From the NCBI GenBank assembly GCA_023512835.1, contig CM042090.1, forward strand, positions 48,749,321 to 48,813,320: 64,000 nt of DNA. The letters run 5' to 3'. Within the stretch, counting starts at the first letter, position 1. Each line of letters starts with the position of its first letter. The notes under the pieces were generated by a model. That model was not told the origin of the DNA. It did no database searches and was given only the letters and a program-made list of their open reading frames with translations. A program made the translations under genes and the position numbers. Source of the stretch: Taxillus chinensis (taxonomy: Eukaryota > Streptophyta > Magnoliopsida > Santalales > Loranthaceae). This document shows, piece after piece, positions 30,993 through 34,389 of the stretch.

Positions 30993-31053
30993 CGGGTTAA
31001 ACGTGTAGCTATTCGTGAGTTAGAGCATTTAATCAGGGATGGATGGAATGGGG
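30993..31053 (+). repeat. 61-bp terminal redundancy of the virus insert, left copy
   Basis: Begins CGGGTTAAACGTGTAGC and ends AATGGGG; identical to 35,177-35,237. It marks the overlap of the inserted circle. Confidence 0.9.
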
Positions 31054-31804
31054 ACCCCATCACGCCTAAGGACACCTCGATATCAGCCGGCTGGTAGACG
31101 GTCACTTCTCAGTGGCAGTGTTGGCCGAAGGCCACCTTTCCGTAATCGTCGGGCTAGTCGGATAACTGCTCAGACCAAGTATGTGCAGTACGTGCCGCGA
31201 TGGTATCGAAAACGATCAAGAGTTGATCGTCGTGGAGTCGAGGTGTTTACACATGATCTAGATAAGATCACCTTTGATGGTAAGGGTGATGTTCGTGTGT
31301 TGAACGCTATTAAATTGGGTAACAGCAAGCATGAACGTCAGAGTGATAAAATTGTTGTAAAGGGGATCCGTCTTTTGGGGAATGTTGTTCTTGGCCCAAC
31401 ACCGTAGCGAGGCGAGAAACGATCATGTTGTTTTACTCATTGTGGTGATGACAAGGTTGGTGATAGCGATCCGAATGCAGGATGATATATTCTCATCCAT
31501 TAGGCCAGCTAGTCCTGAAACGTGGACCGTACGAAGGGACATGGATGATCGGTTCGAATTATTCAAGGATGAAATTGTCACTAGAAGGCGGTGCGGATGC
31601 CTCACATGCGAAACGCCATATTGAGTTAGTTGATAAGTGGATCGATACAAATATTTGGACAGACTATCGAGATGCGTTATTTGGGCCAGTGACGGAATAG
31701 CAAGAGGCGCATTATATTTGGTCATTCTTGTTGTTAATGGGAGTCCATGTCATTATACACTCCGAGTTGAAATTCGTTTTGAATCGTTATTTATTGTAAT
31801 GTAG
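31039..31804 (+). pseudogene. V1: Geminivirus coat-protein-like gene (V1), frameshifted
   Basis: The start is an ATG at 31,039 or 31,048, followed by an arginine-rich N-terminus expected for DNA binding and nuclear import (RRPPFRNRRASR, RWYRKRSRVDRR). The middle has KGDVRVLNAIKLG. After 31,400 the frame is lost; recognisable capsid blocks follow in other frames: SPETWTVRRDMDDRFE near 31,510-31,560, a segment near 31,620-31,690, and the C-terminal strand ending at a TAG at 31,802. About 255 codons in length, normal for a geminivirus capsid protein. At least two frame breaks. The family assignment rests on these blocks. Confidence 0.8.
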
Positions 31805-31821
31805 GTTGATTGTGTTTTGTA

Positions 31822-32774
31822 ATGGATATGGAGGATTTACATACGGGAATAATTGAAGGTGTAAACTCCAACGATTATGAAGAAATTGAACTTTCGTTGC
31901 CAAATCTGTTTGACAAAGTGCGTATGAAATTTAGTGGTAAAAGCATGAAAATTGACAAGATATTAGTGCGATATTCGCACTATGCCCGCCTAATGCGCGG
32001 GGATACGTGCGGTTGGAGGTTATAGACGGGCGATTAGATGGTGCAGATGGTTTACAAGCGTATTATGTCATTCCAGTTGGATTGTCATTGCGAGTTGACA
32101 TACCACGATAATGGGTATTGCTCAAAGAAATGAGAAACAGGTACCATGGATTGTTCGGTATAAGTTAGAAGACTCAAACATTCATGCTTGGTGTGCATTA
32201 TTGCAAGATGCTAGGGTTTTTACGATACGCCTCGGCTGATATGCCGGGGAACAGGCCCTTCGGGCCCCTTCGGTGAAGATATTGAACAAAAAATATGGGC
32301 CTCATAATATTTGCGTGTGGCATTGCCAACCATCAAAGCCCGTTCCATATTTGGGCCGTGCGAGATCATTGTCGATGGGCCATTGCGACGGTAGACTCGT
32401 GATGGTGGGTTTGGCGAGACATCAATTGATTTGGATCACCGTTTGGGCCCTCGTCTTAGTCTCAATGGGCCTCGACGATTGAGGAGCCTTCGGACATGTG
32501 TTCGGATATTGGGCCCTCGGTTAGTCAAGTGGGCCATAATCGGCCCGTGGATACCGTTACGGGTTCCGCTTCTGTTGTAGTGGTTGAGCCTCGGGATTTA
32601 TTGGGCTTTGTCAAGGATGTTGTCGATATCTCATGTAGTCGGTCACGTCGTGAAGGTATTGGTGACTCGAAATTGGAGACTATAGATAGTTATGTGTCGG
32701 ATGGTCAAGTGCAGATAGGAACGGGTGTTGATGTGCAAGTAAATGATGATGGGAACGTTGTTCCAAGGAAGTGA
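31822..32774 (+). pseudogene. BC1-like viral movement-protein gene in virion sense, broken
   Basis: The N-terminal frame (31,822-32,025) has NDYEEIELSLPNLFD and SMKIDKILVRYSHYA, resembling the begomovirus DNA-B movement protein, which moves viral DNA between cells. A frame break after CGWRL is followed by readable fragments (GLQAYYVIPVGLSL; KILNKKYG near 32,278; the C-terminal frame to 32,774). Span is about 318 codons, close to the usual size near 300. A 1-nt deletion near 32,475 is revealed by the inverted copy at 35,584-35,860. It lies directly downstream of CP on the same strand, unlike BC1 in bipartite begomoviruses. Confidence 0.75.
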
Positions 32775-32851
32775 ATGTATGTGGATGTGTTTCTGTAATG
32801 TAATACAATGGAATACAGAAAGGCTGTTGTCGTCATTTTTTTACAACACAA

Positions 32852-33256
32852 TCAATAAACATTAAATTTGACGTCACTAGTTTGTATAACATCATTGATA
32901 TATGGGTCCAATTCAGCTAGTGCAGTCGAAACAGCTCTTATAACATGATTAATGCTAATAACTCCCACATTATCTAAATACTTCATTACATTGAATCGTA
33001 TCCGACCAATAAACGCCGAAGAAGTGGGTGTTAATCTGGTCCAGATCTCGAAGTTGATCCAACATTTGTGAATACAAAGTGATTTGCGTATATTATGGTT
33101 GAAGCGGATCTGGATAGTGATAATGTCATATGGGTCTCCGAAAGGCCTTTGGCGGTGACTGATTACCTTGAAATATAATGGATTCTTTACTAACCATATG
33201 TATTCGCCGCGGTCAGCCTGTTCGGAAGTTATCATATCGCCAGTCCTGTTATCCAT
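32852..33256 (-). CDS. C3: REn-like replication enhancer (C3), open reading frame
   Basis: 134 uninterrupted codons, the usual REn length. It starts MDNRTGDMITSEQA and ends in FNVY, with NPLYFKV, QRPFGDPYDIITIQI and YLDNVGVISINHVIRAV between. REn of begomo- and curtoviruses raises viral DNA accumulation and binds Rep and PCNA. It overlaps nothing intact: the gene lies just downstream of the broken Rep and converges with the movement-protein gene. It is the only viral gene without a visible lesion. Confidence 0.85.
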   Translation of the reverse strand: MDNRTGDMITSEQADRGEYIWLVKNPLYFKVISHRQRPFGDPYDIITIQIRFNHNIRKSLCIHKCWINFEIWTRLTPTSSAFIGRIRFNVMKYLDNVGVISINHVIRAVSTALAELDPYINDVIQTSDVKFNVY

Positions 33257-33286
33257 GCGTGTAGTATGAGATGAGCAATTCTGTAG

Positions 33287-34389
33287 TCAGGTTGATTCGC
33301 GTGGATCTTCGGTGTTGGTGTTATAAAGTGCTGATTGGATAAAGACGAACCAAGCATTTTGGACAGTCCAGTCTTTTAAAGATGCATTCTCAGGCTTCTC
33401 TAAGAAGTCTTTGTAGAGCTGGACCCGTCTCCTGGATTGCGAGCACGATTGAAGGGATCCCACCTTTGATGTGGACTGGTCGGCCATATTTGCGGTTGGA
33501 TTGCCGGTCTTTTTGTGCTCCTATCGAGATGTTTCCAATGCTTCAATTTTAAATAAGCGGGTTCGACGTCATCGATGACGTTATATTCGACGTCATTTGA
33601 GTAACTACGTGGATTAAAATCAAGATGACCACATATATAGTTATGTGGTCCTAATGATCTAGCCCACGCAGTTTTCCCGATTCTCTTTGGGACCTTCAAT
33701 AACTATAGATAATGGGCGATCAATATCTATACGCTTTCAAATCCATTATGAAAATCTGGTCGCGCAAAGATTATCCATAACAAATTGATCACCCAACCAT
33801 TGTTCTAGATCGTCCGGAATAATAAAAGAATTGTCTTGCCATTTTGGAATAAAAATGGCGGTGGCGGAGCAAATATCCTGTCGATGTTAGAAGAAATATT
33901 GTGGTATTCCAATAAAAAGGTTCTTGGATCCTTATCTCGAATGATCTGTAATGCCGACTCTTTTGACCCGGTGCTTAAAGCCTCGGCATACACGTCTTTA
34001 TTAGATTGATTACCGCCATTTGCAGATCGCCGGTCGGTCTGGAATTCACCATGTTGAATCGTGTCACCATCTTTGTCAAGGTACGCATTGACATCGGAAC
34101 TTGACCGTGCACCTTGGATGTGACAATGGAATGAGGTTGATTGGTGTGGAGAGACCAAATCAAAAATCCGTTGATTGTAACACTGAAACTTGCCCTCAAA
34201 TTGGATGAGAGCATGTATGTGTGGCTCCCCATTATCGTGAAATTCCCTGCAAACCTTAATGAATTTCTTATTGACGGGAGTCGGGATATTTTGCAATTGG
34301 GAGAGTGCTTCGTGTTTAGAAAGAGAGCAACGAGGGTATGTGAGGAAGAAATTCCGGGCAGTTACCCGAAATCGGCCGGCGGATGGCAT
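33287..34389 (-). pseudogene. C1: Geminivirus Rep (C1), several frameshifts
   Basis: The ATG at 34,389 (MPSAGRFRV) begins 195 open codons with rolling-circle motif I FLTYP (about 16-19), motif II HIHALIQF (histidines 57 and 59), a GRS-like segment and motif III YLDK with the nicking tyrosine 103. A stop at 33,805 and a frameshift at about 33,690, in the Walker A loop, lead to a second frame with SLGPHNYICGHLD and IDDVEP; a third frame (33,287-33,487) holds the C-terminus (YKDFLEKPENASLKDW). Total span of about 367 codons equals a full-size Rep. No TrAP (C2) frame is recognisable in the overlap zone. Confidence 0.9.

Follow-up and report, generated by a model that had tools for sequence, protein, structure and literature searches.

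Introduction

Citlodaviruses carry CP (coat protein), a BC1-sized MP (movement protein), V2 and V3 on the virion strand, together with a spliced Rep and RepA, in genomes of 3.6–3.9 kb, as far as the available portions of their descriptions go (PMC11053556, PMC10850569, PMC12451643). In the accessible part of one report, their MP is nearest the MPs of DNA-B, their Reps are nearest those of becurtoviruses, and they are proposed as a step toward DNA-B (PMC5923463). The olive geminivirus encodes a virion-sense Gemini_BL1 MP on DNA-B, according to the sections available (PMC8540022, PMC8000510). Here we describe a viral insert in a 64,000-nucleotide (nt) window of the Taxillus chinensis genome (C7:48749321-48813320, in a 520.9-Mb assembly of 264 contigs). 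The insert is very probably the integrated and decayed remnant of one ~4.18-kb circle of an undescribed monopartite geminivirus, known here from its genes alone. At many places in the genome, one molecule carries a V2-like frame, CP and MP in virion sense, REn and Rep in complementary sense, and a standard origin hairpin.

Endogenous elements of this family are described from several plants. In Camellia, Sharma et al. describe Clade 3 elements with CP, BC1 and C1:C2 in an assembled unit of 4.6 kb, and Clade 2 Reps that are basal to begomoviruses, for which the available text of that survey gives no complete genome assembly (PMC7758297). A Macadamia unit of 3440 bp holds CP, AC2, AC3, AC4 and Rep, with no MP reported in the portion available (PMC8626973), and yam elements hold Rep and REn but neither CP nor TrAP, as stated in an excerpt of that work (PMC5014472). 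The available part of the 2025 summary of the International Committee on Taxonomy of Viruses places its new geminivirus species in four genera already known and introduces no further genus (PMC12451643). Citlodaviruses and endogenous Clades 2 and 3 are compared below by their published descriptions.

Gene content and origin of the insert

Each gene piece was searched separately against Pfam profiles. The broken CP gene (31039-31804, + strand) is recovered as two colinear Gemini_coat pieces covering profile positions 12-102 and then 132-161 (E 7e-5 and 6e-4, both under the Pfam curated cut-off); a search of the CP piece against the PDB gave no match. It is followed by a broken BL1/BC1-family MP gene (31823-32774, +), composed of three colinear Gemini_BL1 pieces (profile 13-49, 53-85 and 101-118; E 4.5e-5, 0.013 and 0.21), of which the first alone is over the cut-off. 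MP converges on an open REn gene of 134 amino acids (aa) (32852-33256, −; Gemini_AL3 E 3e-36; 99% to database protein P0001). Beyond REn lies a broken Rep gene of begomovirus type (33290-34389, −), with a Gemini_AL1 match at its start (E 3e-51) and five further colinear pieces on the same strand that align in order to database geminivirus Reps, from residue 186 to 358; the first of these five matches one unnamed protein alone (E 0.007). Since ~1.1 kb accommodates some 365 Rep codons, an intron would not fit. Frame shifts break CP, MP and Rep in the window, and REn is open. These profile matches confirm the arrangement reported in a preliminary description of 31039-34389, namely CP and MP in tandem on the + strand, MP converging on REn, and Rep on the same molecule. 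To it we add the V2-like frame, the origin hairpin, a 61-nt terminal repeat and, at the right end, viral pieces that were copied a second time.

An origin hairpin with TAATATTAC (at 34521-34529) occupies 34506-34541 (+), positioned 5' of Rep; this hairpin between diverging genes and the geminivirus Rep and CP genes are features of Geminiviridae. Hexamers within 34409-34461 (AACACC at 34409; GGTGTT at 34448 and 34456) are read here, by assumption, as iterons. A V2-like frame (+), named by position alone, runs through 34970-35237 and continues at 31054-31097 over the circle joint, with 103 codons and a stop.

Protein searches, whose reach was limited to proteins sharing exact words, relate a window Rep piece to Cabbage leaf curl Jamaica virus (P0056; 67% identity over 86% of length) and the window REn to Lisianthus enation leaf curl virus (P0003; 54% identity). 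The named viruses among the Rep and REn matches are, as we recognise them, all begomoviruses. A begomovirus-type Rep relative (59%) is also present among the annotated proteins of Rhododendron griersonianum (P0096), where it is probably another endogenous copy.

Terminal repeat and unit length

The viral sequence is bounded by two + strand copies of a 61-nt terminal repeat (30993-31053 and 35177-35237), equal at 61/61 nt and spaced 4184 nt apart. The V2-like frame runs past the right copy, and its stop at 31097 lies on the left side, so that the full 103 aa exist solely across the joint. The repeat and the closing of this frame across the joint together identify the insert as a linearised circle with short terminal redundancy. 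Tandem arrays on contig C1 reproduce the unit, with MP matches spaced at 4188 nt in one array and at 4172, 4183 and 4169 nt in another. Stretches fetched from the gaps between neighbouring copies contain the Rep N-terminus followed by TAATATTAC between REn and V2 in 4/4 cases, and the flanks of TAATATTAC are near-identical in L031-L034. The circle of 4184 nt here, and of 4169–4188 nt in two arrays, lies outside the begomovirus range of 2.5–2.8 kb.

These measurements bear on whether the insert is a citlodavirus, or a citlodavirus-like endogenous virus of the Clade 3 that Sharma et al. describe. Citlodaviruses have a large monopartite genome with virion-sense CP and large MP (PMC11053556, PMC5923463; available portions), and Camellia transcripts carry CP, BC1 and C1:C2 (PMC7758297; available portion). 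The window Rep, however, is of begomovirus type, colinear and without intron room, REn is present, and the unit of ~4.18 kb compares with 3.6–3.9 kb in citlodaviruses and 4.6 kb in the assembled Clade 3 unit; we consider this identity very improbable. The preliminary description had given citlodaviruses a virion-sense MP and had not associated them with such a REn; both points hold, REn being absent from the genes listed in the accessible part of PMC11053556.

Copies across the plant genome

Profile searches of the same genome returned at least 64 Gemini_BL1 and at least 86 Gemini_AL3 matches, both lower bounds, and the genome-wide counts are built on these MP and REn families. Merging yields at least 57 MP places and at least 66 REn places, which fall into 55 clusters separated by more than 30 kb and spread over contigs C1 to C9. 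Neither family matched in any of 14 control genomes, and open CP and MP copies elsewhere in the plant genome score far over the cut-offs, ruling out a chance match.

The neighbourhood survey covered the 30 best-scoring MP loci, each with 3.3–3.5 kb of DNA, a choice by MP score that favours open frames. CP lies directly 5' of MP on the same strand in 27 of these loci and a convergent REn lies 3' in 26, with both present in 23. V2, CP and REn occur together in 11 and Rep lies beyond REn in 20, a missing V2 or Rep often meaning that the end of the stretch had been reached. The spacing is near-constant, at 22–25 nt between CP and MP (27 loci) and 79–84 nt between MP and REn (26 loci). Viewed from REn, an MP lies opposite at 57 of the 66 places found: 41 face a Gemini_BL1 match 538–783 nt away, one is the window's own, and direct comparison adds 15 of the remaining 24, including L057 with a match of 16 residues only. 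The other nine REn places (L038, L042, L043, L046, L049, L051, L052, L056 and L058) show no convergent MP or CP in the stretches searched; at L043, CP stands beside the REn piece on the same strand. Locus L010 retains V2 (103 aa, overlapping CP), CP (255 aa) and MP, all open, and its CP reaches 80.5 bits against Gemini_coat (12-232 of 244) and matches the capsid protein chains 6ek5 and 6f2s at E 1e-8.

A begomovirus-like DNA-A and DNA-B joined within the plant genome could mimic one molecule: bipartite begomoviruses carry BC1 on DNA-B (PMC8744271), the olive geminivirus has a virion-sense MP on DNA-B (PMC8540022; available portion), and the window insert shows rearrangement at its right end. 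Against such joining stand the terminal repeat at 4184 nt, the tandem units of 4169–4188 nt, the constant gaps at the MP loci and the MP facing 57/66 REn places. Two molecules joined in the window cannot explain a layout shared by tandem units, constant gaps and MP-facing REn places, and we give this explanation almost no chance. The refutation envisaged in the preliminary description, that CP and MP derive from two integrated molecules joined here, is itself refuted by the repeat, the tandem units, the constant gaps and the finding of no CP converging on REn in the stretches searched. The search it proposed for further copies with the same order brought up many integrated ones and, in scans of viral contigs, no free virus.

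The inverted MP stretch of the window has 73–99% identity to other loci over its whole or part length, a range indicating that a varied set of such viruses entered the genome and that some were duplicated later. A dense cluster at C1:895300-932080 (L035-L037) contains more diverged copies (MP 39–62% in matched stretches, partly via decay) in which the CP-MP-REn order is kept. Spreading of this insert by its host retroelement was considered and rejected, the window's left gag flank being found at 0/30 MP loci (with stretches reaching ~1.45 kb 5' of MP). A different stretch of a similar retroelement lies near the viral piece at L011.

Selection on the copies

Selection was assessed on MP copies of equal length from 12 of the 30 loci and on gap-free copies of REn (10), CP (2) and V2 (6) from the same 30. 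Across the 12 MP copies, mean nonsynonymous (dN) and synonymous (dS) divergence are 0.020 and 0.069, with a dN/dS of 0.29; L005 and L007 differ by 13 synonymous and 4 nonsynonymous changes, and the eight closest pairs give ratios of about 0.65 to 1.9. For REn, the 28 pairs with a synonymous proportion (pS) > 0.10 have mean pS 0.189, nonsynonymous proportion (pN) 0.051 and pN/pS 0.27. The single CP pair (L010 vs L018) yields pS 0.312, pN 0.075 and a ratio of 0.24 (Fisher p 9e-14), and five near V2 pairs a ratio of 1.1. The low nonsynonymous change between diverged copies indicates that these forms diverged as working viral genes, with decay coming later.

The frames overlapping REn were inspected in 11 gap-free copies. 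No TrAP-sized frame is present in any of them: neither of the other two frames stays free of stops for more than 57 aa (at most 51 in 10 copies), and the stops fall mostly at shared places across the 11 copies. These short runs show that a begomovirus-type AC2 is missing from its usual place over REn, and a Pfam search of small frames found no TrAP.

Counter-evidence and phylogenetic placement

Several observations weigh against the reading of the insert as one circle of an undescribed geminivirus. Gemini_coat takes in nuclear shuttle proteins too, and the identity of CP therefore rests on the capsid-chain match and on position. The L010 MP, at 119.5 bits to Gemini_BL1, aligns within profile positions 13-169 of 276. 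Its protein search found no named virus MP and one match among 1095 scored candidates, from which we take MP to be a diverged family member; an MP search against the PDB gave no match. That sole relative, P0121 (95% identity), is encoded on a 1957-nt contig; the contig of the REn relative P0001 has an equal length, and the two proteins probably share one contig. The V2-like frames of the window and L010 match no Pfam family. Viral contigs were scanned four times, with REn, MP, Rep and a REn alignment as queries, and no scan gave a match. As the query built from begomovirus REns was itself among these, such viruses may be scarce in that collection. Segmental duplication accounts for some of the copies, C8:46763830 and 46790079 among them. 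Array spacings elsewhere are 3102 and 3117 nt on C7, where the unit is shortened, and 3866 nt on C5. The last point of this kind is the position of Rep in its tree (41 of 68 rows after thinning; no outgroup), where the window Rep lies on a long branch (0.66), weakly nested (83/75) in begomoviruses beside P0096 and East African cassava mosaic rows, a placement made unsure by long branches.

The shortened C7 array (6.643-6.658 Mb; L015, L020, L028) is a ~3.1-kb tandem unit in which the 5' part of CP abuts the Rep N-terminus. This unit apparently lacks V2 and the origin; if so, the array grew in the plant and not via viral replication from that origin.

Trees cover Rep and REn, and CP and MP were compared by profile and protein searches. 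In the REn tree (no outgroup, unsettled bootstrap, long branches meeting), the window REn and P0001 share a long branch of their own. The Rep and REn trees do not show a lineage basal to begomoviruses.

The preliminary description had also raised a recombinant of components. Its joining inside the plant is rejected (terminal repeat, 4.17–4.19-kb units, constant gaps), leaving an earlier recombination between viruses, which concerns origin and not identity: a begomovirus-like Rep-REn half combined with a citlodavirus-like V2-CP-MP half. We put this at a little short of an even chance. The two halves each resemble a different group, Rep nests weakly inside begomoviruses, and recombination has been put forward for citlodaviruses themselves (PMC5923463; available portion). 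On the other side, the trees cover Rep and REn, not CP and MP; MP is without a named near relative; and REn, with P0001, stands alone on its long branch.

Integration site and host context

The DNA of the window is of plant origin, with many long terminal repeat (LTR) retroelements, and the insert interrupts the gag of one of them. The 5' half of gag (30151-30913, end approximate, +; Retrotrans_gag profile 3-42 of 97) reads from 30151, breaks off at ~30913 and picks up again at 35918 in the 3' half (35918-36522, +), as defined by blastn to an insert-free paralog from 35918 onward. This second copy of the element in the window (19018-14675, −) matches the two flanks (at 88% and 82%), and its aligned parts lie 56 nt apart. 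A paralog with both gag flanks and no insert indicates that ~5.0 kb (about 30914-35917) was inserted into gag.

Both ends of the insert look like end joining with copied filler. In the left junction filler (30914-30992), a repeat search shows 16 nt copied from host gag as well as copied viral sequence. In the right-end filler (35238-35917), a V2 stretch is present for the second time (35296-35522; 4 differences in 227), along with an MP piece in inverted orientation (35579-35865; 3 in 217 and 1 in 67) and 21 nt of Rep. Repeated pieces within the insert differ at 8/572 sites. With plant substitution rates assumed at 0.65–1.3e-8 per site per year, and with the repeated pieces taken as identical at insertion, the insertion would be very roughly 0.5–1 million years old. 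Compared with their best relatives, the window CP, MP and 3' part of Rep (31039-33800) each contain several small gaps, and V2 and REn none. This uneven spread does not fit an even clock; the gaps may come from uneven decay or from assembly errors.

The host retroelement has a separate open reading frame of 472 aa, located 5' of gag (28478-29893, +), with DUF7745 (Pfam E 8e-39) and a plant mobile domain (E 9e-8, under that family's cut-off). Elsewhere in the window, one 36-nt unit forms four arrays, two per orientation (42613-42799, 46821-46968, 54061-54208 and 58761-58946), and an AT-rich array of a 99-nt unit lies at 20143-20695. An Rfam search gave no result.

Discussion

From its gene content, the virus would replicate by rolling circle, with Rep nicking the TAATATTAC loop and REn assisting, and CP would package the viral DNA. 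MP, placed beside CP and not on a second molecule, may move DNA from cell to cell as BC1 does from DNA-B, and the V2-like gene may have a pre-coat or silencing-suppressor role. Integration is best pictured as the capture of a linear molecule slightly over unit length at a chromosome break, where end joining would have copied filler at both ends.

The proposal of the preliminary description that the combination marks an undescribed lineage is supported, many copies having the same layout and no described genus with this gene set having been found in the literature searched. That some genus or plant genome paper already describes the layout is improbable. The search mostly left subscription journals outside, and Clade 2 Reps basal to begomoviruses were published without a complete genome (PMC7758297; available portion). 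Within the literature searched, top-ranked results showed no BC1-like MP and REn on one molecule, and no described genus with this gene set was found.

The origin of begomovirus DNA-B is still debated, and the layout bears on how two-part viruses arose. The lineage might keep a one-molecule stage preceding the bipartite begomovirus split, with a begomovirus-type Rep-REn, the ancestor of BC1 beside CP, and MP moving later to its own circle in complementary sense; we hold this to be rather unlikely. The Rep of citlodaviruses is not begomovirus-like, and a circle uniting begomovirus-type Rep and REn with a BC1-family MP makes the origin of DNA-B testable by gene trees. REn is retained here without an overlapping TrAP frame, in a genome offering dozens of diverged copies for comparison. 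The plant genome holds dozens of copies, mostly broken, of a virus whose single circle brought together genes that are divided over two circles in related crop viruses.

Comparison with known geminiviruses

Endogenous Clades 2 and 3 (Camellia, Macadamia, Coffea and others) are likewise integrated and multicopy, Clade 3 with transcripts carrying CP and BC1 and Clade 2 with Reps basal to begomoviruses; they differ in the RepA/RepB of Clade 3 and, in the available portion of that survey, in the lack of a complete Clade 2 genome. Yam EGV1/EGV2 share a begomovirus-like Rep and REn with no TrAP found, whereas no CP is detected there and the repeat measures 2642 bp. The Olea europaea geminivirus has a begomovirus-like Rep, REn and a virion-sense Gemini_BL1 MP, but is bipartite, with MP on DNA-B, CP on DNA-A, TrAP present and no AV2.

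Citlodavirus (citrus chlorotic dwarf-associated virus, passion fruit chlorotic mottle virus) is similar in its enlarged, monopartite genome, in TAATATTAC and V2, and in encoding CP and a BC1-sized MP in virion sense on one circle. Its RepA and spliced Rep nearest becurtoviruses, its gene list without REn, its extra V3 and its 3.6–3.9 kb set it apart, and a spliced, becurtovirus-like Rep/RepA without REn is not what the window contains. Bipartite Begomovirus shares the Rep and REn type, the complementary-sense order, the hairpin, a BC1-family MP and, in Old World members, AV2 beside CP. It differs in having MP off the Rep molecule, on DNA-B in complementary sense, TrAP over REn and circles of 2.5–2.8 kb, none of which is found here. 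The gene set joins features of the two groups and lacks a tested feature of each, and it is filed under neither Begomovirus nor Citlodavirus.

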